From: Candidatus Omnitrophota bacterium
GTDB lineage: Bacteria > Omnitrophota > Gorgyraeia > 2-01-FULL-45-10
Direction: 5' to 3'
DNA length: 37,499 nt
Assembly: GCA_003142795.1 (NCBI GenBank)
Contig: PLNN01000041.1
Location: forward strand, 6,286-43,784
A program made the position numbers and the translations under genes. Below are positions 18,646 to 33,350 of the stretch, in pieces. The notes beneath the pieces are model-generated. The model was given only the letters and a program-made list of their open reading frames with translations, was not told the DNA's origin and made no database searches. Position 1 is the stretch's first letter. Every line of letters starts with the position of its first letter.

Positions 18646-18663
18646 AATGGCGTGGACGACGGG
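18646..18663 (+). repeat. Degenerate third copy of the tRNA-Asp att core
   Basis: AATGGCGTGGACGACGGG differs by one base from the att core at 19065-19083 and 33351-33369. It corresponds to the 3' end of tRNA-Asp and suggests an older integration or a duplicated end. The GIY-YIG cassette lies exactly between this copy and attL. Confidence 0.75.
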
Positions 18664-18706
18664 TCTACTTCGCTACTGTGCTTAAACTGGATGGAGCTTC
18701 GTAGCA
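18664..18706 (+). repeat. Left inverted repeat of the GIY-YIG cassette
   Basis: The segment starts TCTACTTCGCT, contains TTAAAC and ends AGCTTCGTAGCA. It matches the reverse complement of 19022-19065 over most of its length. A second inverted pair, GCGAAGTAGAATGGC, occurs at 18716-18730 (reverse) and 19056-19070 (forward). Confidence 0.75.
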
Positions 18707-18721
18707 CCTGCTAGGGCCATT

Positions 18722-18985
18722 CTACTTCGCCTGAGAACGCGGTGGCAGTAATCGCTTGACTAGGAACGATTGCCCTGATCCTTCTTTCAGATATCGTTCA
18801 AACGCCTCAGCCGCATTTTTATTCCGGAAAACAATGTATGTCTCTATATTCCACGGGGCATATCTCTTTGTATAATACGAAAGCGCGCTATTATGCTCTT
18901 TTAAGCGTTTGTCAAGATCTTGAGTAATTCCAACGTAATGCTTTGCGGGATCCCTAAGGCTTGTGAGGATATAAACGATATGCAT
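18722..18985 (-). CDS. GIY-YIG endonuclease-like protein inside an inverted-repeat cassette
   Basis: This 87-residue single-domain protein has HIVYILTSLRDPAKHYVGITQ as the GIY-YIG strand pair (YIL, YVG), DLDKRLKEHN for the catalytic arginine helix, and EAFERYLKEGSG for the glutamate helix, so the key residues are intact. It lies between a degenerate att copy and attL and is framed by 43-44 bp inverted repeats. The inner inverted pair overlaps its 3' end. The arrangement recalls REP-associated transposases paired with their palindromes, but with a GIY-YIG nuclease. Domestication as an ordinary repair or restriction-like nuclease is the alternative. Confidence 0.85.
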   Translation of the reverse strand: MHIVYILTSLRDPAKHYVGITQDLDKRLKEHNSALSYYTKRYAPWNIETYIVFRNKNAAEAFERYLKEGSGQSFLVKRLLPPRSQAK

Positions 18986-19021: not shown

Positions 19022-19065
19022 TGCTACGAAGCTTCATTACGGTTTAACTGCTGCAGCGAAGTAGA
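19022..19065 (-). repeat. Right inverted repeat of the GIY-YIG cassette
   Basis: This is the reverse-complement partner of 18664-18706: it begins TGCTACGAAGCT and ends GCGAAGTAGA, touching the first base of attL. Its central part contains CTGCAG, so each repeat can also fold partly on itself. Confidence 0.75.
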
Positions 19066-19083
19066 ATGGCGGGGACGACGGGG
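19065..19083 (+). repeat. attL core (19-bp direct repeat)
   Basis: AATGGCGGGGACGACGGGG is identical to 33351-33369, where it forms the 3' end of tRNA-Asp. Here it is an isolated fragment of the tRNA 3' end displaced by integration, so it marks the left boundary of the element. Confidence 0.9.
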
Positions 19084-19180
19084 GTTTACCCATCACAAGC
19101 ACAAAATCCCCACTCTCGACGATAAAGCATAGCACAGATTTTCTAAATATTCTAATAAATCCCCTTAAAATAGCCCCATC

Positions 19181-19199
19181 TGTTACGTTCTGCTACGTT
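19181..19199 (+). promoter_or_regulatory. Left arm-type integrase sites
   Basis: TGTTACGTT (19181-19189) and TGCTACGTT (19191-19199) are tandem copies one helical turn apart, about 100 bp inside attL. The same pair recurs at 33281-33300 just inside attR in the same orientation, the expected arrangement for arm sites bound by a tyrosine integrase N-terminal domain. The rest of the 146-bp spacer between attL and the first gene shows nothing else I can name. Confidence 0.65.
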
Positions 19200-19228
19200 T
19201 ACCTTTTTAAATTCCTAATGGTGGCTCT

Positions 19229-19768
19229 ATGAGTTGGAATCATACCGACATAATGCACTATGTCTTTGATTCGGGAGCTTGGGAACGCCTTACAAAGAAT
19301 GAACTCCGAGTATATCTGCAAATCTGTAAGCACTATAACCTCAAAGAACATCGCTCCTATCCGAGTATAAACACACTGGCCGAAGAAGTATCAGTCTCAA
19401 GACTTGCCGTGATCCGAGCAATAAAGAAGCTAAAGGACGAGGGGCTTGTTGTAGTCAAGCAAGAGAGGCTAGGGAAGAGTTTCAAATGTAACATATATCA
19501 AATCCCCGACTACCTACTGAGGGAAATAGATAACAAAAAGGACGTGGTATCAAAAGAGATACTAGGTAGTATCATAAAATCGCTAGGTGGTATCAATTCC
19601 GATCAGGACAAGCACATAACCTACATAACGAATATATATAACTCTGTTATTAGTAATAATAAAAGAACTAGTTTAGTATCGAACGAGCCTTTAAGAAGAC
19701 CTAAAGACGTCTTTATGGGAATCTCTAAAGACGAAAGAACAGAGCTACAAGCGAAGGGGTTACTATGA
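19229..19768 (+). CDS. Winged-helix DNA-binding protein
   Basis: This 179-residue protein has an N-terminal winged helix-turn-helix (about residues 15-90: LTKNELRVYLQICKHYN, then YPSINTLAEEVSVSRLAVIR as the recognition part). This is the pattern of the HTH_36/replication-initiator-like group common in phages and plasmids. The C-terminal half is polar and unrecognised. It is the first gene after attL and overlaps the next gene by 4 bases (ATGA). The ribosome site GGTGG precedes the ATG. A role as early regulator or initiator accessory factor is plausible but unproven. Confidence 0.6.
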   Translation: MSWNHTDIMHYVFDSGAWERLTKNELRVYLQICKHYNLKEHRSYPSINTLAEEVSVSRLAVIRAIKKLKDEGLVVVKQERLGKSFKCNIYQIPDYLLREIDNKKDVVSKEILGSIIKSLGGINSDQDKHITYITNIYNSVISNNKRTSLVSNEPLRRPKDVFMGISKDERTELQAKGLL

Positions 19769-20436
19769 AGTCTAAGCACTCAGAGCTAATTCCCCTTAAT
19801 CCTAAAACTCTATCGCCTATAAAACAGGCTCTCAAGGGCGTTACCTTAACGAACTGCACGATCAATATTTATGTATCTCCTCAAGGATCATCAGCCGAGA
19901 TCAAGTCGAACATACCTGATAAATCTCTCCTCGAATATAAAGAGCCTCAATTCATCACGCCTAGAGACGCCTCAGAAATTCACGGATTAAGCGCACCTTT
20001 TTTCCTGTCTTTAGCTCATAAGATAGGAGAACACGACGGCATACGTTGGGTATTAGAAGAAGGAAAACTTGCGGAGTATTTGAGGGAACACCCCGAACAC
20101 CGAGAGAGAAGCCTCGCCTCTAAGAAATTAATTAATCCGCAACTACTTGCAGAAAGAGGGTATCAAATTTTAAAGGACGAGAGTAAGCAAGTCTATCCCG
20201 ACACGGCAAGAGTGCCTTCGGCTAATCGAAGCCGTTATATGTCTTATTCGGAGCTTGCTCGAAGGCTCGGCATTAGTTATTCGCTCTACTATGGCAAAGT
20301 GAGGCAAATTCTATATAAATTAATAAAGCAAAAGCCAGAGGAGGTAACTAAGAAGAAACAGGAAGACGAGGAATGGAATAGGACAGTTTCAAAATGGAAT
20401 CGAACATTGAAAAGAGACAAGGAATTAGGAAGGTAA
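19765..20436 (+). CDS. Unknown protein with helix-turn-helix-like C terminus
   Basis: This 223-residue protein is not recognised as a whole. Residues about 65-115 (RDASEIHGLSAPFFLSLAHK) resemble an excisionase or MerR-type helix-turn-helix, and residues about 150-190 (SYSELARRLGISYSLYYGKV) look like a second one. The last 35 residues are strongly charged. It starts inside the stop of the preceding DNA-binding gene, so the two are translationally coupled and probably work together in regulation or replication. Confidence 0.5.
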   Translation: MKSKHSELIPLNPKTLSPIKQALKGVTLTNCTINIYVSPQGSSAEIKSNIPDKSLLEYKEPQFITPRDASEIHGLSAPFFLSLAHKIGEHDGIRWVLEEGKLAEYLREHPEHRERSLASKKLINPQLLAERGYQILKDESKQVYPDTARVPSANRSRYMSYSELARRLGISYSLYYGKVRQILYKLIKQKPEEVTKKKQEDEEWNRTVSKWNRTLKRDKELGR

Positions 20437-20454
20437 ACGAAAGGAGATAGTGAG

Positions 20455-21324
20455 ATGAGTTGGAATAATGCAATAAAAGCAAATAAGGCAGAGATAGATC
20501 GTTGCGTGCGTGAGAAGTGCGAGACTATTATAAATGTTGGCAAGTATCTAAAGTCAGCCGGAATGTTGGGTAATCAAAAAACTACCTTCGAAGAATGTCT
20601 CGAAGGAAATAAGGAAGCCCTCGCAAGGATAAGGACAATGCTATATAAAGACCTCGAAAATACAGCATATCACCATAGGGGCAATGTAGATTGGGAGTTA
20701 CTGCAAAGGACAAGAGACGAAAGGTCTATGCGAACTTGGAACGCTTCGGATTCTCGCAAGTCGGGCAAGCCTAAACTTATTCATTATGGCAATGACGCTA
20801 CTCTTAATTGGCTTGTATATGGCTCTGACGAGGGCTTAGACAATAAAGACGACCCATTGCTTAACGCCTTTATGGTTGGCTTTCAGTTGGGGAAAGATGG
20901 ACTTGCTCTATTAAAACAAGGGAAGCAAATAGGAGACATTAAACTTACAAAGCACGAACATAAGGTTGAGAAGTATCTAAGGGAAAAAGACATAATAATT
21001 ACTCCTCGACAGATCGGAAAGGCAGAGCCGAGAAAGCCAATAGAGATTGCCCTCGATTTGTATAAATGCGTGAACGATATATTTGATAACATCTTTACCG
21101 ACAAAGAGCGAGAGGGCTTCGTCAGTTGGTTTGCTTGTGATAGGTCTCTAAGGAAAGCAGGGAAACAGCTTAAGATTGACCCTAAGAGCCTCCACGCTAG
21201 GTTATTTGGGGATAGCAGGGGCGGTGGGGCTATTCGAAAGGTAAGGAATAACCCCCGCCTAAGGGAATTGGCTTGGGAAGCAGGTATTTTAAAAAATCTT
21301 CCTAAAACTCCCCCCACAAAATAG
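20455..21324 (+). CDS. Unknown 289-residue element protein
   Basis: I do not recognise this protein. It is soluble and mainly helical, with no membrane segment. Near the C terminus, VSWFACDRSLRKAGKQLKID followed by PKSLHARLFG could be a helix-turn-helix, suggesting nucleic-acid binding. The ribosome site AAAGGAG at about 20439-20445 is good. It ends the first gene group of the element, and a 246-bp spacer with a possible terminator follows. Confidence 0.5.
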   Translation: MSWNNAIKANKAEIDRCVREKCETIINVGKYLKSAGMLGNQKTTFEECLEGNKEALARIRTMLYKDLENTAYHHRGNVDWELLQRTRDERSMRTWNASDSRKSGKPKLIHYGNDATLNWLVYGSDEGLDNKDDPLLNAFMVGFQLGKDGLALLKQGKQIGDIKLTKHEHKVEKYLREKDIIITPRQIGKAEPRKPIEIALDLYKCVNDIFDNIFTDKEREGFVSWFACDRSLRKAGKQLKIDPKSLHARLFGDSRGGGAIRKVRNNPRLRELAWEAGILKNLPKTPPTK

Positions 21325-21570
21325 GGTATTGTAGCCTATATATGGAAGGTAACTTGAAAATCGCACATATGATATAGAGGGGTATTTCGGACACCTAAAA
21401 GCACTATTTATGATGCAATCAAGGCAAATGTTCGGACAAAATTGAGTAAGTGAAGGGATAAGAAGACAAACCCGCAGTAAAGCCCGATCTGTTTCAAATT
21501 CGTTGGGGGAATCAAAAACCCCTCTTTTTTAAAAACTTCTGTTTTACCGCAGTAAATAGGAGACCCCATA
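21325..21570 (+). terminator. Spacer with possible intrinsic terminator
   Basis: There is no gene in this 246-bp spacer. GGGG at 21505-21509 pairs with CCCC at 21519-21522 and is followed by TCTTTTTT, a short-stem terminator that would end the first gene group. CCGCAGTAAA occurs twice (about 21470 and 21546), flanking the hairpin, which may be a regulatory repeat. Confidence 0.45.
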
Positions 21571-21795
21571 ATGAAGCAATATCTGATAAAAGACCTCGCA
21601 GATATTCTCAAATGTAGCAAGCAAGCAATATTGTGGCACGTCCACAAGAAGCATATTAAGGCCGAAGCAAGGCTAATGGGTAGTCAGCCTGTATGGGTAA
21701 TAAAAGAAGATCAGGCAGTAAAATTGGTATGGATATTGTTTTTAAATTCAGGAAAGGGGAGAAAAAAATGTGGTGGAAAAAAGCAGATAGACTAA
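21571..21795 (+). CDS. Small helix-turn-helix protein
   Basis: The protein has 74 residues. The N terminus, YLIKDLADILKCSKQAILWH, followed by HIKAEARLMGSQPVWVIKE, has the shape of a MerR/excisionase-type helix-turn-helix with a wing. AGGAGACC provides the ribosome site. It overlaps the next gene by 28 bases. It may be a second directionality factor or a transcriptional regulator of the replication genes that follow. Partner and site are unknown. Confidence 0.6.
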   Translation: MKQYLIKDLADILKCSKQAILWHVHKKHIKAEARLMGSQPVWVIKEDQAVKLVWILFLNSGKGRKKCGGKKQID

Positions 21796-22004
21796 ATGAC
21801 CTAACAAAGGCAATTGCAGACGAAGTGGTAAGTCTCAGATTTCTTGTGGCAAGGAATGAATTGTATCAGCTCAGACTACTTGCAAAGGTGGCTCTCGGGA
21901 CTGTCCTGACGCCCGAAGACTTGCTCAAGACAATGGCTGAGGCGAAATTGGAAATGTCTTTTGAAGACGTTAAGGCAAATGTAATGGCAGAGATTCAAAG
22001 ATAA
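21768..22004 (+). CDS. Unknown small protein, 78 residues
   Basis: The start is taken at ATG 21768, which follows AGGGGAG. The longer in-frame version begins inside the upstream gene and has no ribosome site. The product is helical and charged (begins MWWKKADRLNDL), with a segment LTPEDLLKTMAEAKLEMSFE that looks like a coiled-coil or small adaptor. I do not recognise it. It is part of the tightly packed second gene group leading to the primase. Confidence 0.55.
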   Translation: MWWKKADRLNDLTKAIADEVVSLRFLVARNELYQLRLLAKVALGTVLTPEDLLKTMAEAKLEMSFEDVKANVMAEIQR

Positions 22005-22032
22005 AATTCAAAGATAAAAGGAGAATATAAGA

Positions 22033-22200
22033 ATGAAAGAGCAGAAAATAAATGAGAGATTATCAAAATACATAGATAAAACCTATGAGAAATTTGGTTG
22101 GAATCCTAGACAGACAGAAATAAACTCTGAGGGCGATCTGCCTTTAAAAGAGGCGAGCGTCAAAGGTGCTGACTACGAAAAGGCCGTCGGTAGATCGTGA
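22033..22200 (+). CDS. Unknown small protein, 55 residues
   Basis: ATG at 22033 follows AAAGGAG at about 22017-22023. The frame runs 55 codons to a TGA that overlaps the GTG of the next gene (GTGA), which supports translation. The product is polar and not recognised. Confidence 0.5.
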   Translation: MKEQKINERLSKYIDKTYEKFGWNPRQTEINSEGDLPLKEASVKGADYEKAVGRS

Positions 22201-22436
22201 AGCCTTACGGAATCGGTTGGGTGCAAAAGAGTGAACGCCGTTATCTTGGGCGATTAAAGTTTTGTGTTTATGGACTTGATTCTTATTGCGTAATCGAGGG
22301 AGGTAATCACAGACGCTATACCACAAATATGACGGGCTTCCCTAAATATTGTTACGAGGGGATTCTACTAAGTTTTAACCTGATATATAAATATGGCTTT
22401 AAACCCGAAGCAATTAACGTAAGAAAGGAAGAATAG
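22197..22436 (+). CDS. Unknown small protein, 79 residues
   Basis: It starts at GTG 22197, overlapping the previous stop by 4 bases. The sequence suggests a small mixed strand/helix domain rich in tyrosine and glycine (IGWVQKSERRYLGRLKFCVY, CYEGILLSFNLIYKYGF). No motif is recognised. Compact spacing on both sides, 4 bases to the cold-shock gene, makes it part of the same operon. Confidence 0.5.
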   Translation: MKPYGIGWVQKSERRYLGRLKFCVYGLDSYCVIEGGNHRRYTTNMTGFPKYCYEGILLSFNLIYKYGFKPEAINVRKEE

Positions 22437-22440
22437 AAGA

Positions 22441-22686
22441 ATGAAAGGCACAGTCAACTTTTTCTCAACGCAGGGGTGGGGTTTTATAAAGGGCGATGAT
22501 AAGCAGGATTATTACGTCCATCATACAGGCATTGCTACCGACGAGACTTTTAAAATGCTAATGAAGAATGAGGTTGTCGAGTTTGACATTCAGCCGACAG
22601 ATAAGCCCCGTCCAATGGCGGTAAATGTCAAAGTTACCAGAGTATATAAGAATGAGGAGAAGGCAAATGCAGACAGAAGTATATAA
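22441..22686 (+). CDS. Cold-shock domain protein carried by the element
   Basis: This 81-residue protein begins GTVNFFSTQGWGFIKGDD, the first strand and RNP1-like region of the CspA fold (usual KGFGFI replaced by QGWGFI), then DYYVHHTGI as the RNP2-like HxH region, and EVVEFDIQ. CspA-type proteins bind single-stranded nucleic acid. The gene directly precedes and overlaps the primase-helicase by 20 bases, suggesting a single-strand binding role in element replication or mRNA handling. It is slightly longer and more divergent than host CspA. Confidence 0.8.
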   Translation: MKGTVNFFSTQGWGFIKGDDKQDYYVHHTGIATDETFKMLMKNEVVEFDIQPTDKPRPMAVNVKVTRVYKNEEKANADRSI

Positions 22687-23947
22687 AGATACGGAGACGA
22701 ACACAAGCTCCGAGAATGAAGTTACCTTTAATCATAACAAGGTAGCAAGTAGTATTTTAAATCGCAATCAAATTATATATATCGAAGAGCAGGACGCCTT
22801 TTATATTTACAAGGATAACTATTATCAGAAATTTCGAGTGGGGCAAATAGGCAAGGAAATCAAAAGAGTTGTTGGGAATAAGTTTTCAAAACACACGCAG
22901 GCAGAGGTTATTAACTCGCTCAAGGCTGACGCCATTATTAAATTCGAGGACTTAAACAGCTCTTCGCTTTTGAACTTAAAGAATGGCTTATTTGACATAG
23001 CGTCCGAGACCCTGATTCCCCATTCGCCTCAAGTCAAAAGCACGATTCGCCTCAATGTTTCTTATAACAAAGATGCTAAATGCCCGAAGTGGCGGAAAGC
23101 AATCTCTGAGATATTGGAGGACGAAGGGAAAATATCGGTCTTTCAGGAATATTGCGGTCTATGCCTAACAAAAGAAACTCGCTATGCAAAGGCTTTGTTT
23201 CTGATCGGCGAGGGGGCTAACGGCAAATCAACGCTCCTTGCTCTCTTGGAGCATATCTTAACCTCGCTCAACGTCTCCTCAATACCGCTTGAAATGCTCA
23301 AGAATAATAACTACGTCGCAAATCTCTTCAATAAGCTAGTCAACATAAGCTTTGAAACGAACAGCAAAAGCGAGGTTTATGACGCAACATTCAAGTCAAT
23401 CGTTACGGGCGATTTAATGACAGCCGACGCAAAGTATGGACACCCTTTTGACTTTCGTCCGTATTGTAAACTGATTTATGCCCTCAACAATATGCCGAGA
23501 GTAAGCGACAAAACCCTTTCCTTTTACAGACGGCTTTTAATATTAAGGTTTAATAAGACGTTTGAAGGGGCAAGCGATAACAAAGGTCTCAAAGAGGAAC
23601 TCTTGACCGAGCTAGATGGCATTTTCCTTTGGTGCTTGGAGGGGCTTCGAAATCTAAGACAGAGAGGCGATTTTAAGCCGACAGAGGAAATGGAGCGAGA
23701 AGTTAAAGACTATCAGAGGGAGAATAACGCCGTCCTAGTCTTTGCGGAAGAGAAGTGCAATATAGATCCTAAGGCAAGCACTACAAAACAGATTCTATAT
23801 GACACCTTCAAAATCTGGTGCGAGGAGAACGGCCATAAGCCTGCGAGCCAAAGACACTTCACTAACGACCTGAAGAAAGCCTATCCGTCTTTAAAGGACG
23901 GACGAACGGAAGAGGCAAGGTTTTTAGAAGGTATCTGCCTAAAATAA
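22667..23947 (+). CDS. SF3 primase-helicase / replication initiator (D5/P4 type)
   Basis: I start at ATG 22667, after GAGGAGAAGG, giving 426 residues. An upstream in-frame start lies inside the cold-shock gene and lacks a ribosome site. Walker A is GEGANGKST at residues 181-189. The D5 N-terminal-like region precedes it (LLNLKNGLFDIASETLIPHS), and LIYALNNMPRVSDKTLSFYR RLLIL-type residues follow as the SF3 core with sensor and arginine-finger positions. The C-terminal part resembles the DNA-binding domain of P4 alpha-like proteins. No catalytic primase domain is visible, so it is mainly helicase and initiator. Iterons lie directly downstream, as in satellite Rep-ori modules. Confidence 0.9.
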   Translation: MQTEVYKDTETNTSSENEVTFNHNKVASSILNRNQIIYIEEQDAFYIYKDNYYQKFRVGQIGKEIKRVVGNKFSKHTQAEVINSLKADAIIKFEDLNSSSLLNLKNGLFDIASETLIPHSPQVKSTIRLNVSYNKDAKCPKWRKAISEILEDEGKISVFQEYCGLCLTKETRYAKALFLIGEGANGKSTLLALLEHILTSLNVSSIPLEMLKNNNYVANLFNKLVNISFETNSKSEVYDATFKSIVTGDLMTADAKYGHPFDFRPYCKLIYALNNMPRVSDKTLSFYRRLLILRFNKTFEGASDNKGLKEELLTELDGIFLWCLEGLRNLRQRGDFKPTEEMEREVKDYQRENNAVLVFAEEKCNIDPKASTTKQILYDTFKIWCEENGHKPASQRHFTNDLKKAYPSLKDGRTEEARFLEGICLK

Positions 23948-23964
23948 AACTCATTTAAGAGCCT

Positions 23965-24091
23965 AAATGACGCAAATGACGCAAATGACGCTTCTTCCCT
24001 ATGTTATTACAGAAATCAAAATATATATATACAATAAGAAGATGTGTCATTTCTGTCATTTCTGTCATTTTAAGCACAAACTAAATGACGC
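23965..24091. other. Iteron replication origin with AT-rich core
   Basis: Three perfect tandem copies of AAATGACGC (23965-23991) face three tandem copies of TGTCATTTC/T (24045-24071), whose complement is (G/A)AAATGACA. A seventh copy, AAATGACGC, is at 24083-24091. Between the opposed sets lies an AT-rich core containing ATATATATATACA. Opposed iterons around an AT-rich melting region next to an SF3 initiator is the structure of satellite and phage origins such as those of SaPIs. A frame through it encodes CHFCHFCHF, an artefact of the 9-base period. Confidence 0.85.
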
Positions 24092-24115
24092 AACGAGGGG
24101 AAAAGAGGGAAAAAC

Positions 24116-24703
24116 GTGTCAAAACGACTTACAGAGAAAGAAAAGGAATTCCTCCGGCTCTATACCGACACGGGGAGCGAGACATTCGGAAATGGAACAA
24201 GAAGTTACGCAAGGGTATATAAACCTAAGAACAATAATGTGGCAGGCGTTATGGCTTTAAGACTATTAAGAAAGGTAAAGGTGAAAAAGTATATGGCAGA
24301 ACAAACGAAGGAATGGGAGCTGGATATAGGCAAGCACGTGCAAGCACTCGACGAAATGGTAAACTCACTCATTGACAAGGCAAAAGCAAAGGGAGGGCTG
24401 ACTATCGCCGAGTTGGAGAAGCTTGTTAAGCCGATTCGATTCTTTGCGGAGTATGCGGGGAAGGTTGGCTCAGGCAATCAAGTCAACATCGCAATATTAC
24501 AGCAGGAATGGAAGAACGGCTCTACTCGTCAATGTCCGACTTGTGGGTATTCGCCGATGGGAATGTTACGCCTTGAAGAAATAATGAAAGACCTTCCTCC
24601 GCTTAAGCCCATCATAAACACACAGGCACAAGTTGAGTATGAGAAGACGCTCGAGCCTCAGGCAAATTTAGATCGGGCAATGGTTACGGCGAAGGACAGC
24701 TAA
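24116..24703 (+). CDS. Probable terminase small subunit (TerS)
   Basis: This 195-residue protein starts at GTG after GAGGG. The N-terminal region LTEKEKEFLRLYTDTGSETF, then GTRSYARVYK, then VMALRLLRKVKVKKYMAEQ is the pattern of small terminase DNA-binding domains, where a helix-turn-helix is followed by a stretch ending in VKKYM. A helical oligomerisation-like part follows, with QCPTCGYSPMG near residue 140 as a single CxxC. TerS selects the DNA to be packaged. No large terminase gene is present in the element, so it would need a helper phage's TerL. A DNA-binding protein of another kind is the alternative. Confidence 0.7.
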   Translation: MSKRLTEKEKEFLRLYTDTGSETFGNGTRSYARVYKPKNNNVAGVMALRLLRKVKVKKYMAEQTKEWELDIGKHVQALDEMVNSLIDKAKAKGGLTIAELEKLVKPIRFFAEYAGKVGSGNQVNIAILQQEWKNGSTRQCPTCGYSPMGMLRLEEIMKDLPPLKPIINTQAQVEYEKTLEPQANLDRAMVTAKDS

Positions 24704-25411
24704 AATCGGTGCTTTATTATGTCGGGGTGGTAAGCACAGAATAAACAATGAAAAGGGCAGGGGGATTATTTACTATCTCTGGCTCGGCTCAAACATTGGC
24801 AGATTTTAGGAAGCCCGCAAAATCCCTCACAAAATAACAGGGCATTATCGCTAGGATTAGTTATACGGGGCGATAGGTCTTGGATAAGGATAACTTACGG
24901 ACAGGCTTTTCGGTAGGAGATCGTCTATCTGAGGGGCAATTAGAGGGTATTGGCAAGTAGGGTAAAGCAGGGGGCAGTAAGGAGTAGGCAGACAGGGCGA
25001 TAGGTGCTACAAGCAGGGCTGTAATAGCATTGGCGGGCAAGGACAGGCACTATATCGTATGTATGCTATGGATAGACTAGCCTCTACACACGCAAGGATT
25101 GACGTTCGGTCTTAATGTGAGCATATATATAGAAACAAGCCTTCAGCAGAAGACCCTTCACCCGCCCCAGACCCCTTGCTCTCTATGGTATAGTCAAAGA
25201 CATAATCGCCACCTATTCCCAAATCTCAGTTAGGAATAAATAGTCAGCTATTTACTCAGGGCAGGCTCAAGACACCTTAAACCGCCCGCCTCCGGCGGCA
25301 AACAGTTTGCTTCATTTAATTTATTCAAACAAGAGGGTGGCCTCATTCAAATCTTGAAGTTGAAATAATTTTTTGCGGGAAAATTTGAAATCTCAAAAAG
25401 AAAGGTGAAGT
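24704..25411. other. Long non-coding tract, 708 bp, between TerS and virion-like genes
   Basis: There is no frame of useful length with a start on either strand. The first half (about 24720-25100) is purine-rich on the plus strand with many TAG triplets. GGGCGATAGGT-like phrases occur at about 24870 and 24996. The second half has a perfect hairpin TAAATAGTCAGCTATTTA at 25237-25254, then CCGCC/GGCGG at 25286-25298 and GCAAACAGTTTGC at 25298-25310. Candidates are a packaging site (pac or cos), a structured RNA, a late promoter region, or the scar of lost packaging genes. Confidence 0.5.
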
Positions 25412-25576
25412 ATGGCAAGTCTTGGACTTAATGCTCTGACGGGCAAATTAGATTTAAAAACTTCTAATCTAGACAAAATGCCAATTTCTGATTCTGATAC
25501 ATACTTTAAATGGGTAGCCCCGAACACAATAGAACTATATGTTAATGGGGTTAAGGCTCAATCTTGGACAATATAA
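25412..25576 (+). CDS. Small virion-like protein, 54 residues
   Basis: ATG 25412 follows AAAGGTGAAG and opens 54 codons. The end, TIELYVNGVKAQSWTI, resembles the strand pattern at the end of phage fibre or decoration proteins. It stands alone ahead of the late-type genes and uses the same kind of ribosome site (AAAGGTGA) as the next gene. I cannot identify it further. Confidence 0.5.
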   Translation: MASLGLNALTGKLDLKTSNLDKMPISDSDTYFKWVAPNTIELYVNGVKAQSWTI

Positions 25577-25597
25577 CAAAAAAAGAAAGGTGATTTT

Positions 25598-26488
25598 ATG
25601 GCAAATAAGAATTGGGGCGAATCCTTCGCCGAGAGTTTTTCAGAAGGTTTGAATAACGGTATGCGTATGGCTTTTCAAGGAACTCAAATGGCTCAACAGG
25701 AACGGCAAAATCAGATGATGATGGACGCCCGAATGTTTGAACATGGCTACGAGAGGATTGATCCTAAAGACAACGAGGAGGAATTGAAGCAGGCCATATG
25801 GGAGAAGAAAGCCGAAGGTTATCCCGTTGCCGGAGGTGGGGCGGTTGGTATTCCCATTGGTGGGAAAGCGAAAGACGGCATTATCTATGACGCTCAGGGA
25901 AATGAGAAGGGCAGTTACACAGGAGAAGCTCCTAAGCCCGTAAGCAATCTTGTTTCAGGCTACGGAAAGAACATCGTCCGTATAGGCAATCTTTGGTATA
26001 AAGCCCCCGATCCTTCTAATGCTGATGATATTAACTCCGTCGTGGAGAAATTGAACAAGTCTTATCAGGGCGGTGGCTCTTTTATTCCTTCAACAAAAAG
26101 CGTTGGTGAAGTTACTTATCACTATCAGCCTAGTATTGAAGAACAATATGGAGGTTGGAGACAGCAGAACGGTTTTCAAAACGCTCCTATACAACAAATG
26201 CCAATAGAGACGCCAATGCAAGCTCCCATTCAATCTCCCGTTAGCACAATACAGCCTCCTAAGGCAGTAATACAAATGCGTAATATGGTTAGTAACGCAG
26301 TTGCGGAAGGGGCTTCTCTCGAAGAAATTTTACAAGGGATTAAAGATGAGGGAATGAATCCGATGGACTACGCCGACTTACTCAAGCCTCTCATTTCAAA
26401 GAGACAGACTGCTCCCGTTAAGCCTCAATCTCCCTATAACTTAATCAACACTAAAGCGAGAAGCAATAACAAGAGGAATCTAATCTAA
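25598..26488 (+). CDS. Virion-associated-like protein with glutamine/proline-rich middle
   Basis: The protein has 296 residues. The N terminus is helical and methionine/glutamine-rich (MRMAFQGTQMAQQERQNQMM), like small internal or head-completion proteins of podophages. Residues about 185-225 are rich in P, Q, I and M in near-repeat form (PIQQMP, PMQAPIQ, PVSTIQPP), and the C terminus is helical. No enzymatic motif is seen. Its stop overlaps the ATG of the 872-residue gene by one base, so both are expressed together. Function is unknown, and structural or ejection-complex partner is an inference. Confidence 0.5.
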   Translation: MANKNWGESFAESFSEGLNNGMRMAFQGTQMAQQERQNQMMMDARMFEHGYERIDPKDNEEELKQAIWEKKAEGYPVAGGGAVGIPIGGKAKDGIIYDAQGNEKGSYTGEAPKPVSNLVSGYGKNIVRIGNLWYKAPDPSNADDINSVVEKLNKSYQGGGSFIPSTKSVGEVTYHYQPSIEEQYGGWRQQNGFQNAPIQQMPIETPMQAPIQSPVSTIQPPKAVIQMRNMVSNAVAEGASLEEILQGIKDEGMNPMDYADLLKPLISKRQTAPVKPQSPYNLINTKARSNNKRNLI

Positions 26489-29106
26489 TGTCTTGGTTTA
26501 AAGATAAATATGGAACTACCGAAACACAGGCGACGCCTGATCCTAACGTGCAGAGTGCGGTTGAAGAATATCACGCTGCACACGAAGACCCCTCGCTGAC
26601 AGAAGCTCTCCTCAATACCTTTAAGAGCGTTGCGAGCGAATCTATTCCCTCGCTAGTGGCAAAAGCAGGAACAGGCTTACTTGCCCCCGATGTTTTAATG
26701 AAGCTTTCTAACGCAGCAGCAGAAGAAAGCAAAAAGCCTCTAAGGAAACTTACTCAAGGCGTGGTAGATAAATTCTCCGATGAGACCGTATCTCCTGACA
26801 CAGCCTCAGCATTACTCAATAGCCCTCTTCCGGCAATGGGGGCAGGCCTAGCTGTCGGAAGTCAAATCTCTCCTCAAGCAGCCGTCAATGCTGCCCGTGA
26901 GGTCGCCATCGATCCGAGAACTTATTTATATGGTGGAATGAGTGCGGAGGGTAAGACTGCTAAAACCGCCGAAGAAGCTCTCGCCTTACAGACAGAGCCT
27001 CCGGCGATACTCCGTCAGGGACAGGCACTCCCTAAATATGCCGAAAATATAAACCTTAAGACAATGCCTGCCGATGTAAGACAGAAACTCTATGAGGTTG
27101 TCTCAAGCAATCCCTCAATCGGAATCACTCCTAAAATCTCAAACGCTGAACTTGTGCAAAAGGCGAGCGAACTTAAGGACACGCCTATAATAAATTACCT
27201 GACTAATCTCAAAGACGGCTCGCTAGAGGCAGAAGCTCTTAAACTCCGAATGGGAAACACTCAGCTTCTTAGAGACGCTCTTAAGTCAGACTTAACGGAT
27301 ATGAAAGGCTCTCTCGACGCAATTATTGAATCAGATGTTGCGAAGCAGAGAAAGGTTGCCTCTATCTTTGGGCGAGGACTTCAACAGCAGACTATCTCTC
27401 CCGAGGCACAGCAGGAATTGGCTTTTGCCATTGAGGATAAGATAAAAGCGATTAAGAGAGACCCTGCTTTTGGTAATGATAAAGAGCTAATTGGAACTTT
27501 GGAGAATCTTAGAAAGACAGTCATTAACCCTGCCTTTGAGCCGACAGCCTTTAATAAGGTCTATTACGTTTGGCTTAATTCTATTCTATCTTCGCCAATG
27601 ACGCATATAGTAAATACGACGAGCAATACGTTATTCGCCTTGAGTAAGATACCTGAGAAATTTGCCTCAAGTGTTATGGACTTGCCGATCTCTTTATTTA
27701 CGGGCAAGAGGACGCAATTCTTCGGCGAAATACCCGCAATGATTAAGGGGGCATTTAGTCGAGAAGCACTTCCGGCAGAACTAACACAGGCAGGCTCTAA
27801 GCTCGATGTTTATGCTCAGCCGATAAAAGGACTAGCCGGAAAGATAATCGGAACTCCGACAAACCTCTTACAGCTAGAAGATAACTTGGCAAAGAACGTC
27901 GTCGGGAAAATGGAACTCTACGCTCAGAGATACGCAGGGAAGACGGGCGATGAGTTGATTCAGGCCGTAAAGGGAGAACAGCTCTATCGAACCTTTCAGA
28001 ATGAGCCGACAGCACTTGCAAAAGGTTTAATGACGTTACGAAGTAAAGTGCCTTTCGTCCGTTATGTTGTGCCATTTCTTCGCACTCCATCGAACATAAT
28101 CGAAAGAGGGTTAGAGAGGACGCCTTTAATCTTAGGCAAGATGGCCTATAAGGGCGTGAAGGGAACTTACACTCAAGCAGAACTCGCAAAGGATATGGGG
28201 CTTCTCTCTATGTCTTCAATGCTTACAGGCTATATTGCTTGGCAGGTTGGTAAGGGAAATCTCAATGGCGACGCCCCAGAAGGAAAAGCTGAGAGAGACG
28301 CTTTCTTTAGACAGGGCAAGAAACCGAATAGCATTAAGGTGGGCGATTCTTGGATTCCGCTAGATCGCCTAGAGCCGTTTGGAACTTCATTCTCCACAAT
28401 AGCAAACTTAATAACAAAGTATCAATCTTCCGACAAGGACATACCCGCCGAGAAAGCAATGGACGCAGTTGCCTCTTTGGGTAAGACCCTAACGACGAAG
28501 AGTTATTTGTCGGGAATGACAGGGCTTCTTAAGGGCTTGAGTGATCCCGAACTCTACGGAGCAGGCTTCTTCCGCAGAACGGCGTCGGGAGCTGTCCCTA
28601 ACGCTCTTTCATTCTTTGCTAATCTCAAAGACCCTTATTACAGGGAAGCAAATTCTGTCTTGGATTATATGAAAATGAAAGTGCCTTTCTTAAGCGAGAC
28701 ACTCCCTCCGAAGTTAAACGCTTTGGGCGAGCCTGTAAAGAGAGACGTCCTTAATATTGGCAAAGCGAATGAAGACCCGTTGAATCAATTAGCGATAGGT
28801 TTTCCGTCAAAGAAGATAGGAGACGTTAAGCTATCGCCTGAGCAATATAATCAGGTCTTGCAGGAACGGGGAGCGATAATCAAGCCCCTCTTGGAAAAGA
28901 TAACCTCGAATCCCGATTGGTGGAATAGTTTATCGCCTGAGGCGAGAGATAAAATTATCGAGAACGTAACCTCGAAAGGTGGGATGATCGCAAAGAAGAA
29001 AACAAGAATGCAGATGGAAATGGAAGGTCGCAGGGGTTTTAACGAGTGGAAACAGTTTAAGAATTTCGGAAAGTCAAAATTTGCTTTGAAGTATGGCAAA
29101 AAATAA
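26488..29106 (+). CDS. Large internal-virion / DNA-ejection-like protein, 872 residues
   Basis: It has features recurrent in very large phage internal or polyvalent proteins: the segment WLNSILSSPMTHIVNTTSNT near residue 370, the segment RYVVPFLRTPSNIIERGLER near residue 524, alanine/glycine-rich amphipathic stretches (about residues 60-160), and a hydrophobic SMLTGYIAWQVG segment near residue 578. These resemble proteins that travel with the genome and enter the cell at infection. No catalytic motif is recognised, such as transglycosylase, protease or RNA polymerase. It is by far the longest gene of the element, and no head or tail gene accompanies it. Confidence 0.55.
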   Translation: MSWFKDKYGTTETQATPDPNVQSAVEEYHAAHEDPSLTEALLNTFKSVASESIPSLVAKAGTGLLAPDVLMKLSNAAAEESKKPLRKLTQGVVDKFSDETVSPDTASALLNSPLPAMGAGLAVGSQISPQAAVNAAREVAIDPRTYLYGGMSAEGKTAKTAEEALALQTEPPAILRQGQALPKYAENINLKTMPADVRQKLYEVVSSNPSIGITPKISNAELVQKASELKDTPIINYLTNLKDGSLEAEALKLRMGNTQLLRDALKSDLTDMKGSLDAIIESDVAKQRKVASIFGRGLQQQTISPEAQQELAFAIEDKIKAIKRDPAFGNDKELIGTLENLRKTVINPAFEPTAFNKVYYVWLNSILSSPMTHIVNTTSNTLFALSKIPEKFASSVMDLPISLFTGKRTQFFGEIPAMIKGAFSREALPAELTQAGSKLDVYAQPIKGLAGKIIGTPTNLLQLEDNLAKNVVGKMELYAQRYAGKTGDELIQAVKGEQLYRTFQNEPTALAKGLMTLRSKVPFVRYVVPFLRTPSNIIERGLERTPLILGKMAYKGVKGTYTQAELAKDMGLLSMSSMLTGYIAWQVGKGNLNGDAPEGKAERDAFFRQGKKPNSIKVGDSWIPLDRLEPFGTSFSTIANLITKYQSSDKDIPAEKAMDAVASLGKTLTTKSYLSGMTGLLKGLSDPELYGAGFFRRTASGAVPNALSFFANLKDPYYREANSVLDYMKMKVPFLSETLPPKLNALGEPVKRDVLNIGKANEDPLNQLAIGFPSKKIGDVKLSPEQYNQVLQERGAIIKPLLEKITSNPDWWNSLSPEARDKIIENVTSKGGMIAKKKTRMQMEMEGRRGFNEWKQFKNFGKSKFALKYGKK

Positions 29107-29115
29107 GGGGGAACT

Positions 29116-29859
29116 ATGCCACAATACACGCCGGAGGAAATGGCACAGAGGGCTGATTTCTATCTTAATAAGAAAGGTCTTAAGGATAGGGCTCAGGTAG
29201 TAAAGGATAAGCAAGAAGCCTTTGAAAAGGCTGCAAAGAAATATGGCGTTACACAGGAGCAATTTCAGCGAGGGATATTTCCCGATGAAGTAAAGGAGCT
29301 ATACGAGGACTACGCTAAGCACGATATTTTCTTAAGGCGAGCTGTCCAATGGAACATTGAGAATGACGCTAAAGAGGCAGGCGGTTACGATAAGTCGGGC
29401 GAGGCACTAGAGAACGAGTTTAATGGCTACGTCGCCACGAAAGAAACTACGGCAGAGCAGTTGAAGAAGATTAAAGAGGTAGAAGACAATTATAATAAAT
29501 ATCAGGACAGGGACAGTCTAACAAATTATGTAAAAACTACGATAGAGGCTAAAGGTGCAACGCCTGAGGAAAGAATCGAGAATGAAGTGCAGGAACGCCA
29601 CGATCAGGTGCAGGGGGCTATGGATCGCCTAAGGGATATTACAAAAGAAAACGAAGCCCGCACGAAAGCTGATAAGATTATGAAGGTGAACGACTACAAG
29701 GAATCGAGAGAAGCAATCGAGAAAGAGGCACTAGCCGATAAAAGGTTAATGCACTCAAACATTCCTCCTACTCGCAAAGATAACTTCACGATTGAAGTTG
29801 AGCAGAGGACAAATCAAATCCTAAAAGAAAGGGGCTACAATGTCATTCAAGAAGACTAA
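29116..29859 (+). CDS. Coiled-coil protein of the virion-like block
   Basis: This 247-residue protein is highly charged and helical from about residue 75 on (many E, K, D, R and Q), with an N-terminal EEMAQRADFYLNKKGLKDRA and no hydrophobic core segment. It reads as a coiled coil or scaffold-like protein. It starts 9 bases after the 872-residue gene with GGGG as ribosome site, and overlaps the next small gene by 20 bases. It is probably a partner of the large protein, and no family is recognised. Confidence 0.5.
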   Translation: MPQYTPEEMAQRADFYLNKKGLKDRAQVVKDKQEAFEKAAKKYGVTQEQFQRGIFPDEVKELYEDYAKHDIFLRRAVQWNIENDAKEAGGYDKSGEALENEFNGYVATKETTAEQLKKIKEVEDNYNKYQDRDSLTNYVKTTIEAKGATPEERIENEVQERHDQVQGAMDRLRDITKENEARTKADKIMKVNDYKESREAIEKEALADKRLMHSNIPPTRKDNFTIEVEQRTNQILKERGYNVIQED

Positions 29860-29992
29860 CCCGCAAGCTGAACGTGCAAAGAGAGAAGCAGAGGCGATGA
29901 AAGACTTAGCATTTAGGAAGAGTGCGGGAACGAGAATTACCGCTCCGAGACTTCCGCCTGAAAGAGTAAGCTACAACGGCAAGTTGATTTAA
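29840..29992 (+). CDS. Small basic protein, 50 residues
   Basis: ATG 29840 follows AAAGGGG and overlaps the end of the preceding gene by 20 bases. The 50-residue product is rich in K, R and A in its first half and ends with RLPPERVSYNGKLI. It is the last gene of the virion-like group, and a strong hairpin follows 30 bases later. It is not recognised. Confidence 0.5.
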   Translation: MSFKKTNPQAERAKREAEAMKDLAFRKSAGTRITAPRLPPERVSYNGKLI

Positions 29993-30022
29993 CCGACTAA
30001 TCTCTAAGCCTAGATTTTAAAT

Positions 30023-30052
30023 GAGGGGGTGCTTCGGCATAAGCACTTCCTC
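30023..30052 (+). terminator. Strong hairpin after the virion-like block
   Basis: GAGGGGGTGCTT (30023-30034) pairs with AAGCACTTCCTC (30041-30052), giving 12 pairs including two G-U around loop CGGCAT. The following T tract is poor, so efficiency as an intrinsic terminator is uncertain. The rest of the 253-bp spacer up to 30245 holds a repeated CGTGGAACAT (30123-30132 and 30168-30177) and no gene. Confidence 0.5.
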
Positions 30053-30245
30053 AGGTCGGCTTTGTCTTAAAGACCGTGCCGAGCGAAGCGAGGCCTCAAG
30101 ACCGTATAAAATACAGTAACGGCGTGGAACATAATATTTATTTTTAGGGGGTTTTTAGCTTTGATTTCGTGGAACATTGGTAAAAATCGTGCCAAATAGG
30201 TGGTCTAAATAGTGTTATAGTGAGAGGACTTTTTTAGGGTGGGGC

Positions 30246-30632
30246 TTAGTGTTCTTCAAAATCCTTGATCGTTTTAAGTCCTTTGATATAAACCTTTTTT
30301 AGAGTTAATGTTTTGTCGTGTTTTTTTAGCTCTGTGAATCTTTTCATATCTTCTTCTGTTAATTCGAGTTTAACGTCGAGGGTAGTATCGTGAAGCGACT
30401 TTTTAACAGATTGCTCTAATTTGTATTTCTTCTCTAAGATATAGGCGTGAGAAATATTATTATCACCGAGAATATAAACTATACTTCTGATAACGGCAGG
30501 GGAGGGAAGCTTGTTATGTTTTTCTATTTGTGTGATATAGACAGGGTTGACGCTGATCCTCTCGGCTAATTCGTAAACCTTCAAACCCTTTGCCTGACGA
30601 GCTTCTCTTATAATCTGACCGAATCGTTTCAT
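30246..30632 (-). CDS. Xre/CI-like repressor
   Basis: This 128-residue protein has an N-terminal helix-turn-helix of the Xre family (IREARQAKGLKVYELAERIS, then VNPVYITQIEKHNKLPSP) and a charged C-terminal region without the S24 self-cleavage domain. It is the only minus-strand gene of the element and is divergent from a Cro-like gene, as in lysogeny switches. Its promoter ends 7 bases before the ATG, so the message is likely leaderless, as for lambda cI from PRM. Without a LexA-like domain, induction must come from something other than RecA-driven self-cleavage, for example a helper-encoded antirepressor. Confidence 0.85.
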   Translation of the reverse strand: MKRFGQIIREARQAKGLKVYELAERISVNPVYITQIEKHNKLPSPAVIRSIVYILGDNNISHAYILEKKYKLEQSVKKSLHDTTLDVKLELTEEDMKRFTELKKHDKTLTLKKVYIKGLKTIKDFEEH

Positions 30633-30639
30633 AGTAAAA

Positions 30640-30668
30640 AGTATATCCCAAAACTAACTAACAGGCAA
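30640..30668 (-). promoter_or_regulatory. Repressor promoter, predicted leaderless
   Basis: On the minus strand TTGCCT (30668-30663) and TATACT (30645-30640) are 17 bases apart. The start codon lies 7 bases after the -10, at the expected transcription start. The operator copy at 30651-30664 fills the spacer, so bound repressor would act on its own promoter. Confidence 0.75.
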
Positions 30669-30727
30669 ATGTTATTTTTTATTTGACAAAGACCGATTCA
30701 TAGTGTAAACTAACTAACAGAAGTTAG
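30651..30727. promoter_or_regulatory. Operator repeats of the switch
   Basis: AAACTAACTAACAG occurs at 30651-30664 and again, identical, at 30707-30720. The second copy overlaps the palindrome CTAACAGAAGTTAG at 30714-30727. One copy sits in the repressor promoter and the other overlaps the -10 of the rightward promoter, so binding can shut either direction. Confidence 0.75.
30683..30711 (+). promoter_or_regulatory. Rightward (Cro-side) promoter
   Basis: A perfect TTGACA at 30683-30688 and TAAACT at 30706-30711 are 17 bases apart. Start would be near 30718, giving a leader of about 79 bases before the Cro-like ATG at 30797. The second operator overlaps the -10. Confidence 0.8.
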
Positions 30728-30796
30728 GCAGTATCAAGTAGGGCAAAGTTTTTTTTGGTTTGTAGCTCAAATAATAAATAAATGGAGGTGGTAAAT

Positions 30797-30988
30797 ATGG
30801 CAACGGCATTAAAATTGGAGCGGACGAGGCAGAACATTAAGCAGTATAGACTTGCCTCTCTAGTTGGTATCTCGCCCTCAGAGCTTAGTCTCTATGAGAG
30901 CGGAAGACAACGCTGTCCGGCAGATATGAGGCATAGGATAGCGGACGTGTTGAAGGTTAAGGTAGAGCAGTTATTCGAGGAAAACTAA
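30797..30988 (+). CDS. Cro-like helix-turn-helix protein
   Basis: I use ATG 30797 because GGAGGTGG at 30784-30791 fits it. The in-frame ATG at 30782 precedes that site. The 63-residue product is a single Xre helix-turn-helix (LERTRQNIKQYRLASLVGIS, then PSELSLYESGRQRCPAD, then ending VEQLFEEN). It diverges from the repressor and heads the integrase operon, so it is the expected Cro-type partner. It might instead be an activator of recombination genes. Confidence 0.85.
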   Translation: MATALKLERTRQNIKQYRLASLVGISPSELSLYESGRQRCPADMRHRIADVLKVKVEQLFEEN

Positions 30989-31006
30989 AAGGGGAGGGTT
31001 GGGAGA

Positions 31007-31231
31007 ATGAAAAAGATTAAATTATATAATAAAGTAGAAATTAAAAAGAATGTCAAAGAGTTGGAAAATTTTACTTTTGAAGATGAAGAACTTGTGAGGC
31101 TTGGTTTCAAGTGCGATGGACACGCCACAGAATACGGAGAGAGAGCTTGGCGTTGGATAAGAGGAGAGGAATCAATAATCGCTTGGGACGTAGGAAATGG
31201 ATTCTGTTGTGTAATGGGAAGGCAGGCGTGA
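31007..31231 (+). CDS. Unknown small protein, 74 residues
   Basis: GGAGGG and GGGAG precede the ATG. The product has an N-terminal charged region and a compact, tryptophan-rich C-terminal part (GERAWRWIRGEESIIAWD then GNGFCCVMG). No family is recognised. It is 19 bases after the Cro-like gene and 1 base before the zinc-ribbon gene, so it belongs to the same early operon. Confidence 0.5.
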   Translation: MKKIKLYNKVEIKKNVKELENFTFEDEELVRLGFKCDGHATEYGERAWRWIRGEESIIAWDVGNGFCCVMGRQA

Positions 31232-31232
31232 A

Positions 31233-31358
31233 ATGAAATGCTCAAAATGCGGTAGCGGTTACATCGAGATAAAGAAGTCGAATTGCTTGAGAGCGATTGC
31301 AGTTTGTAAGTGCTGCCTCTTCGCTTGGGTGGTTAATCTCTTCAAGGGTGCGATATGA
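31233..31358 (+). CDS. Small zinc-ribbon protein, 41 residues
   Basis: ATG 31233 opens 41 codons encoding a CSKCGSG knuckle and a second CKCC knuckle about 22 residues later, a minimal zinc ribbon, with a hydrophobic tail (LFAWVVNLFKG). The stop overlaps the ATG of the serine recombinase (ATGA), supporting translation. Its role is unknown. Confidence 0.6.
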   Translation: MKCSKCGSGYIEIKKSNCLRAIAVCKCCLFAWVVNLFKGAI

Positions 31359-31897
31359 AGATTGCCCTCTATGCCCGAGTAAGTAAGGACGATGGAAGTC
31401 AGACAACGGACAATCAGTTAGAGCCTCTGCGTAAGTATGCCTCTGCTATGGGTTGGGAAGTAGTCAAAGAATATGTGGAAATGGTGTCGGGTGGTGGAAA
31501 ATATCGGGAAGAATTTAATAATATGCTAAGTGATTCTGATAAACACCTTTTTGACACTATCCTTATTTGGTCGCTTGATAGATTTTCAAGAGAAGGAACA
31601 TCTACAATGTTGGGATATGTGGATAGGCTTAAAAGAAATAAGGTTGGGCTTTGCTCCCTTCAGGAAAGGTGGCTTGATATTTCAGATTCAGGCATTGCAA
31701 CGGACGTTATTCTGCCTATTCTTGCTTGGGTTGCAAAAATGGAAAGACAACGCATAAGCGAAAGAACAAAGGCGGGTTTAGCAAGGGCAAAAGCTCAGGG
31801 CGTAAAACTTGGTCGCAAGAAAGGCTCTAAAGACAAGGTGCGTCGAGTTAGATCAGGCTACGTCAAAAGATGGAGAGGAGAAAAGAAGAATGGATAG
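31355..31897 (+). CDS. Small serine recombinase (resolvase/invertase)
   Basis: The protein has 180 residues. The catalytic serine is S10 in ALYARVSKDDGSQTTDNQLE, and the catalytic arginines are in LDRFSREG near residue 76 and MERQRISERTKAGL near residue 128, with the E helix and a short basic DNA-binding tail (GVKLGRKKGSKDK). Lengths near 180-200 are typical of resolvases and invertases, not of large integrases. With a tyrosine integrase present it is a second recombinase, perhaps resolving multimers formed by iteron replication. The tail lacks an obvious full helix-turn-helix, so site binding may be unusual. Confidence 0.9.
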   Translation: MKIALYARVSKDDGSQTTDNQLEPLRKYASAMGWEVVKEYVEMVSGGGKYREEFNNMLSDSDKHLFDTILIWSLDRFSREGTSTMLGYVDRLKRNKVGLCSLQERWLDISDSGIATDVILPILAWVAKMERQRISERTKAGLARAKAQGVKLGRKKGSKDKVRRVRSGYVKRWRGEKKNG

Positions 31898-32033
31898 AGA
31901 GGAGCTTGCTCAGGAATTGGCAGAAGAATTTATCAATGACGGCAGGCCTATTGAGGAAGTAAAAGACCTTATGCGGGATTTAACGGTTGAGACAATACTA
32001 AAATTTAAGGAACTATCGAAGGAGGCAGAATAA
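31890..32033 (+). CDS. Unknown small acidic protein, 47 residues
   Basis: The start is taken at ATG 31890 after GGAGAGGAG; the longer frame has no ribosome site. The 47-residue product is acidic and helical (EELAQELAEEFINDGRPIEE). It overlaps the recombinase end by 8 bases and its TAA overlaps the next ATG. It may be a small accessory factor of one of the recombinases, which is inference from position only. Confidence 0.5.
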   Translation: MDREELAQELAEEFINDGRPIEEVKDLMRDLTVETILKFKELSKEAE

Positions 32034-32221
32034 TGACTTGGGGAACAGCTAAACAAGTTTCAGAAAAGTTTGCGATACCATTATCAACAGTATATTACTA
32101 TGCGAAGACGGGGGATTTACCTTCAAAGCATATCGCAGGAAGAACAAAATATCCGTTAGACGTTATTGATAAGGACTTTAACAAGAGCGTAAAGGACAAT
32201 GCGAATACAAAAGTTTGGTGA
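32033..32221 (+). CDS. Excisionase-like helix-turn-helix protein
   Basis: This 62-residue protein has a MerR/HTH_17-type motif (GTAKQVSEKFAIPLSTVYYY, then AKTGDLPSKHIAGRTKYPLD), the form common to excisionases and recombination directionality factors. It overlaps the integrase by 23 bases, the classic xis-int arrangement. It should bend DNA at the attachment arms and favour excision. Confidence 0.75.
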   Translation: MTWGTAKQVSEKFAIPLSTVYYYAKTGDLPSKHIAGRTKYPLDVIDKDFNKSVKDNANTKVW

Positions 32222-33269
32222 GCCTTATAGGCGTAAAGATAGCCCCTATTGGTGGATATGGTATTACGACGCCATAGGTAAGCGTAGGCAAGAAAGCACG
32301 CAGACACAGGATAGGGGCTTGGCTATGAAGATTCTCCGCAGCCGGATAATGGAGTATTCACAGCTTAAGGGTGGGGTTAAAGAGACAAGCGATATGCCTT
32401 ATGCAGCATTTGGGGAAGATTATTTAAAATATGTAAAGGCACGTTACACCGCAGAAACTTATAAATCCTATAAAACCGCCGTAAGAGTTTTTAGTGATTA
32501 TCTATTGGGGCAGGGATTATCGAGATTATCAGATATAGACTACGGGCTGATACAGAGATTCATTACAGATCGCCGGAGCAAAGGCAACAAAGCGAATACT
32601 TGTAATAATTATATGAAGAATCTTCACGCTCAATTTGAATATGCGATAACTCAGAAACTTATGCCTCAAAACATAATGCCCATTAAATATTCAAAAATCC
32701 CCGTTACAGATTCAAAAGAGCCGAAAGCCTTAACAGAGGTTGAGTATAAAAGGATTATGACAAGGATTAAGACGGACTACCCGTATTTCTACCCGATATT
32801 CTATGTCTATTTCCACACAGGGTTAAGATTCACAGAACTAATAACTCAAGAATGGAAAGACGTCTTTCTTGATAAGGCATATTTAAGAGTTACAAGACCG
32901 AAAGGGAAAAGGAAAGGAATAGACACAGTTGATCTAAGCAATTCACTAATAAAGATATTTGAGAGTTTTAAGGGTAAGCATAAAACTTATGTATTTGTAG
33001 ATGAAAATAGAGAGCCTTTCAGTATGAGGACAAGAAAGTTTATAAGGCGTATTCAGGCGATAGCGAATGATCTAGGCATTGAAGGGGTAAACCTTCACAC
33101 TACAAGACACACCTTCGGCAGTCATTATATTGACGCCGGAGCGAGCCTTGAGGAGACGCAGCGAGCTTTAAGGCACAGGGAGATCAGAACTACGCAGAGC
33201 TACGTCCATAAGGTAAATCCGTCTCATTCACGTCTTACGGGCATATTGGAGAAGAAATTAAGGATATGA
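32199..33269 (+). CDS. int: Tyrosine integrase of the element
   Basis: This 356-residue phage-type integrase has a basic N-terminal arm-binding region (KFGEPYRRKDSPYWWIWYYD), a SAM-like core-binding domain (about 70-165) and a catalytic domain with R210 in HTGLRFTEL, H300 and R303 in HTTRHTFG, H326 in LRHREI, and nucleophile Y335 in QSYVH. All catalytic residues are intact. The gene ends 80 bases from attR in tRNA-Asp. The overlap with the excisionase gene and the arm-site pair at 33281-33300 complete a working recombination module. Confidence 0.95.
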   Translation: MRIQKFGEPYRRKDSPYWWIWYYDAIGKRRQESTQTQDRGLAMKILRSRIMEYSQLKGGVKETSDMPYAAFGEDYLKYVKARYTAETYKSYKTAVRVFSDYLLGQGLSRLSDIDYGLIQRFITDRRSKGNKANTCNNYMKNLHAQFEYAITQKLMPQNIMPIKYSKIPVTDSKEPKALTEVEYKRIMTRIKTDYPYFYPIFYVYFHTGLRFTELITQEWKDVFLDKAYLRVTRPKGKRKGIDTVDLSNSLIKIFESFKGKHKTYVFVDENREPFSMRTRKFIRRIQAIANDLGIEGVNLHTTRHTFGSHYIDAGASLEETQRALRHREIRTTQSYVHKVNPSHSRLTGILEKKLRI

Positions 33270-33280
33270 AAAAAATGAGC

Positions 33281-33300: not shown

Positions 33301-33350
33301 ACTTTAGGGGGTTTTTAATGTATCGACGGAGAAATGAATTGATTTTAAGA

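Follow-up and report, generated by a model that had tools for sequence, protein, structure and literature searches.

The window analyzed here, a 37,499-nucleotide stretch of DNA from a Candidatus Omnitrophota bacterium, carries a 14.3-kb integrative element that is probably a maintained phage satellite of Omnitrophota, and that encodes both a homolog of the terminase small subunit (TerS) and a homolog of the ejection proteins of podoviruses. It can be proposed more tentatively that the element represents a new class of satellite, in which the satellite's own TerS would redirect packaging and its own ejection protein(s) would put the satellite in charge of entry.

The element lies between a left attachment repeat (AATGGCGGGGACGACGGGG, positions 19065-19083, + strand) and a right attachment repeat (33351-33369, + strand), which are exact 19-bp direct repeats 14,286 bp apart; the right repeat overlaps the 3' end of tRNA-Asp (33353-33429, - strand), the only match of the Rfam search. 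The GC content between the repeats is 42.5%, versus 48% in the neighborhood. The gene adjoining the right repeat and tRNA-Asp encodes a tyrosine integrase (32199-33269, + strand; phrog_1, E=3.6e-47, with XerC/D-type NCBIfam matches below their cut-offs), and the integrase and both att repeats are intact. An imperfect (89%) third copy of the repeat is found at 18646-18664, 419 bp beyond the left end and separated from it by a GIY-YIG-like ORF (18722-18985, - strand); this copy is possibly a remnant of a previous integration event at that tRNA-Asp gene. No empty insertion site was found among relatives in the same family, where the flanking genes are not syntenic.

The element is equipped as an integrative element should be, with att sites, an integrase and genes of its own for regulation and replication. 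The genes begin with one for a replication-initiator O-like winged-helix protein (19229-19768, + strand; Pfam HTH_36, E=8.9e-13; phrog_678, E=1.1e-10), followed by helix-turn-helix (HTH) and unknown ORFs, a cold-shock-domain protein (22441-22686, + strand; Pfam CSD, E=1.7e-12; 34% identical to its counterpart in a second element described below, element 2) and the C-terminal part of a D5_N/P4-family primase-helicase (22625-23947, + strand; TIGR01613, E=2.7e-68, above cut-off; phrog_864, E=8e-97). The families of the primase and the initiator occur in ordinary phages too. Next come the TerS gene, a gap of about 0.7 kb, and three genes encoding proteins of 296, 872 and 247 amino acids, and then two divergent Cro/cI-type HTH regulators, one on the - strand (30246-30632; Pfam HTH_3, E=3.3e-7; a PHROG transcriptional repressor) and one on the + strand (30782-30988; a PHROG transcriptional regulator in the six-frame scan, with a weak match to element 2). 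The last genes before the integrase are a small serine recombinase/resolvase (31355-31897, + strand; Pfam Resolvase, E=4.7e-34; 32% identical to that of element 2) and a small HTH protein that is excisionase-like by position and size (32033-32221, + strand), with a weak match to an HTH ORF of element 2.

The ORF at 24116-24703 (+ strand), for which the original prediction gave the correct coordinates, has a GTG start and encodes 195 amino acids, in the N-terminal part of which the original prediction had noticed, from the letters alone, a pattern resembling small terminases. The profile comparison that it called for agrees: residues 5-74 match Pfam Terminase_2 with E=2.2e-7 and 32.1 bits, above the cut-off of 26.1, and the protein matches phrog_51, annotated as terminase small subunit, with E=2e-10. 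Thus, as judged from sequence, the product is a TerS homolog, matching better than chance, in which the N-terminal helix-turn-helix of Terminase_2 and PHROG 51 is present. No relatives were obtained among phage records by tblastn or in IMG/VR by a single-sequence query, but an alignment query of IMG/VR returned one, on contig L020, with 38% identity over 106 amino acids. The gene of this relative (6031-6516) lies 1.2 kb upstream of a gene for the terminase large subunit (TerL). The 14-kb L020 contig also encodes a serine resolvase (10001-10564) that is 37% identical to the one at 31355-31897 of the window.

The AlphaFold model of TerS has a mean pLDDT of 56, rising to 72-91 for the N-terminal helices (residues 1-60). 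In a Foldseek search with this low-confidence model no PDB entry matched significantly; named hits from a viral fold library were often terminase small subunits, none with E<0.001. The profile match to TerS is mainly to the N-terminal 65-75 residues, and the C-terminal part is poorly conserved as well as poorly modelled, as would be expected of a DNA-binding regulator that has a terminase-like HTH and no packaging role. Such a regulator is highly improbable, given that the protein is conserved beside a virion gene in two elements, that its L020 relative is encoded upstream of TerL, and that the protein of element 2 (33% identical to the TerS of this element) matches phrog_51 as far as residue 135. 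The usual phage context, terL beside terS, is present for the relative in L020 but absent here; since absence of terL is what a TerS-bearing satellite predicts, the missing neighbor is compatible with identification of the gene as terS.

All six frames of the element (19065-33369), with stops read as X, were compared to 38,880 PHROGs, with the best 25 of 34 families taken into account in one of the frames, where the remainder were weaker. Among the matches listed, the only head-and-packaging families were phrog_51 (TerS) and phrog_6651 (internal virion protein); there was no TerL, portal or capsid family, nor any for tail or lysis, and the others pertained to integration, regulation, replication or cold shock. 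The original prediction held that no TerL follows TerS, and pointed to an overlooked frame as the place where one might yet be found; the six-frame matches listed bear it out, as does a search of all six frames of the whole assembly with PF03237 and phrog_2, which matched contig C3 only and nothing in the window. Genes for a complete virion are lacking both from this element (among the six-frame matches listed) and from the forward frames of element 2. Contig C3 (L014, 1-15529), part of a phage that was binned together with the host, carries the assembly's one clear TerL; its genes include an ATPase/nuclease, a helicase, a DNA polymerase I-like protein and TerL. The phage on this contig was rejected as the helper when blastp detected no gene in common with the element, and so the TerL-compatible helper phage that the original prediction anticipated was not found, the one clear TerL of the assembly being on an unrelated contig.

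The 872-amino acid protein (26488-29106, + strand) is an internal virion (ejection) protein of the internal-virion-protein-D type (phrog_6651, E=1.6e-28). By tblastn it is 20-26% identical to the internal virion proteins of podoviruses of Pelagibacter, Synechococcus and Roseobacter; a single-sequence query of IMG/VR found no relatives, an alignment query found five (24-38% identity), and a wider alignment added none. The motif AENIN (residues 185-189) is common to all seven of the aligned proteins. In podovirus MW202801 the genes for TerL, head-to-tail joining, capsid and stabilization lie upstream of that for the relative; contig L008 likewise has upstream genes for a major head protein and for a structural protein of the virion; and contig L009 has TerL and a head-tail adaptor as well. 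Because these relatives are located in phage morphogenesis modules, the 872-amino acid protein gene is taken to be a podovirus structural gene, which in this element stands without the rest of its module. The N-terminal extensions of the ejection-protein relatives vary greatly around the shared AENIN motif, and the longest, of 1767 amino acids (contig L011, 431-5734), begins with a region that, on visual inspection, looks like an NlpC/P60-type hydrolase domain. The AlphaFold model of the 872-amino acid protein (mean pLDDT 45) is unusable.

The genes on either side of the ejection protein gene are also conserved in element 2. The 296-amino acid protein (25598-26488, + strand) is 27% identical to the product of 9367-10221 on contig L004 of that element (E=2e-23); it has no family match, no relatives in IMG/VR and no similarity to the genes upstream of phage ejection genes, and from its position it is possibly a small partner of the ejection protein. 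The 247-amino acid helical protein (29116-29859, + strand) has a counterpart in the same position in element 2 (29% identity over 150 amino acids, E=4e-5). In podoviruses three ejection genes stand together in a small cluster, and the large gene comes last (PMC8954989); the cluster here is small-large-small (296, 872 and 247 amino acids), and no homology was detected between its smaller members and the genes that precede ejection genes in phages. The original prediction of a satellite with a stand-alone TerS is supported insofar as a TerS without a TerL is encoded by a bounded, integrase-bearing element of 14.3 kb, but it overlooked the podovirus ejection gene downstream; standard satellites of that sort have no structural genes, and an element with a conserved ejection protein gene is not one of them.

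Among about 384 genomes sampled from the phylum and 384 from the class, two such elements were found in total, a strong match to the ejection protein being present in one other of the 384 phylum genomes. Element 2 belongs to Candidatus Omnitrophota bacterium DeMMO3_19 (G243), which is assigned to another family of the same class. Its gene order is the same as here: TerS (L004, 6607-7113), a gap, and proteins of 284, 847 and 222 amino acids, the 847-amino acid ejection protein being 58% identical to the one in this element. In the three forward frames of L004, phrog_51 and phrog_6651 are again the only head-and-packaging families matched. A large serine recombinase is found at the end of element 2, versus a tyrosine integrase in this element, and the insertion site is inside comM, the gene of a YifB-type ATPase (from about 3735 of L004 to about 2127 of L006): the N-terminal half of ComM runs into the element, ending ...NLAPANVKK, and the other half resumes with KKEGSAFDLAIALG, the common stretch being AAAAAAG. 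The module of TerS and ejection protein is thus associated with two integrases that are unrelated to each other and inserted at different sites. All reading frames shared by the two elements are intact, and their four shared proteins have pN of 0.31-0.48 at a pS of about 0.8 (0.31/0.81 for the ejection protein and 0.41/0.79 for TerS), with synonymous sites saturated; these values are in keeping with purifying selection on the shared genes.

The gap after terS (24704-25411), a candidate packaging or regulatory region, is about 700 bp of non-coding sequence in which no frame had a family match among the matches listed. It contains a single weak 26-bp direct repeat (81%). No k-mer in it occurs above the level of shuffled sequences, as an iterated packaging-site motif would, and k-mer and repeat analysis recognized no repeat-rich packaging site. 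Element 2 also has a gap after terS, with three reverse-strand ORFs (L004, 7818-9248, - strand) that include one for a membrane protein and one for a lipoprotein, part of which is BamE-like; these are possibly superinfection-exclusion genes or accessory cargo.

The same region bears on the suggestion that the element is a defective podovirus prophage, from which a single deletion removed everything from terL to the tail genes, leaving the gap as its scar and the remaining genes as relics. Since phages carry their ejection genes after those for TerL, portal and capsid, one deletion would bring terS next to them, and a non-coding stretch of about 0.7 kb occurs at that junction. A decaying prophage is nevertheless unlikely: the att repeats and integrase are undamaged, and element 2, with proteins from 33% (TerS) to 58% (ejection protein) identical, has kept the same selection of genes in intact frames with another integrase at another site. 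Relics would not be expected to retain the same selection and open frames in elements with TerS proteins only a third identical, and conservation of the frames despite different integrases and sites argues against random decay. A satellite of phage descent would, however, itself look like the outcome of an old deletion whose product was then kept in long use, so that the two readings grade into one another. The second, distant element with the same arrangement strengthens the interpretation as a satellite, and the selection of TerS and ejection protein that the two share looks like that of a new sort of phage parasite with its own entry protein.

As a satellite, the element is predicted to excise when a helper phage, probably short-tailed, grows in the cell, and to replicate via its own initiator and primase. 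Its TerS would then pair with the TerL of the helper and steer packaging to the satellite's own site, a prediction modelled on SaPIs, for which direction of packaging by TerS is established (PMC6092414), while the capsid, portal and tail would come from the helper. The 872-amino acid ejection protein, perhaps with its 296- and 247-amino acid partners, would be loaded into the particle and aid passage of satellite DNA across the envelope of the next cell, replacing or competing with the ejection proteins of the helper; this step is extrapolated from podoviruses, in which ejection proteins are packed inside the capsid and needed for infectivity and DNA entry (PMC8954989). The same residence in the capsid and requirement for infectivity (PMC8954989) would also suit a TerS-directed satellite that uses its ejection protein as interference, loading it into helper virions to spoil delivery of helper DNA. 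Satellites commonly encode helper interference (PMC6092414), and such a role becomes conceivable from the ejection protein gp44 of 80alpha, which is required for growth of the phage yet dispensable for transduction of SaPIs (PMC7290940) and thus matters differently to the two; but the satellite's own particles would contain the ejection protein too, and interference is quite improbable as its function.

What known satellites take from their helpers is packaging, capsid size or tails. If the prediction that the ejection protein serves the satellite's own entry is correct, satellites can seize control of delivery too, and this would go some way to explaining how they reach hosts outside the helper's range or poison helper virions. 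The element would, in addition, be a phage satellite in the uncultured phylum Omnitrophota. The literature searched, which omits many subscription journals, contained no satellite with ejection or internal virion proteins, and no phage satellite in Omnitrophota was met with there.

The element can be compared with several known systems. Its 872-amino acid protein is a clear PHROG 6651 homolog, like the ejection proteins of podoviruses (T7 gp16, internal virion protein D), but has a shorter N-terminal part (872 amino acids in total versus 1088-1767 for the IMG/VR relatives) and is encoded outside a complete phage. In carrying part of a virion gene set the element resembles capsid-forming PICIs and the Streptomyces satellites MulchRoom and MiniFlayer, but those have genes for portal and capsid as well as for terminase subunits (PMC10690885), whereas TerL, portal and capsid are absent here and only TerS and the ejection protein are present. 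It shares with P4-like satellites the P4-family primase C-terminal domain and, by inference, the use of another phage's particle, but differs in encoding TerS; that primase domain is also the only trace, among the six-frame matches listed, of the P4 core genes sid, delta, psu and alpha. The features in common with terS-bearing PICIs of the SaPI type are an integrase with att repeats, divergent regulators, a replication module, terS without terL, and a size of 14.3 kb, within the range of about 12-15 kb of PICIs with integrase, regulator and replication module. The element differs from PICIs in its Omnitrophota host, in its gene order, where the virion genes are followed by the regulators, xis and int, and in its virion ejection protein gene. 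The definition of PICIs includes absence of phage structural genes (PMC6092414), and the element is therefore not assigned to them, although its packaging step would work like that of a terS-bearing PICI.
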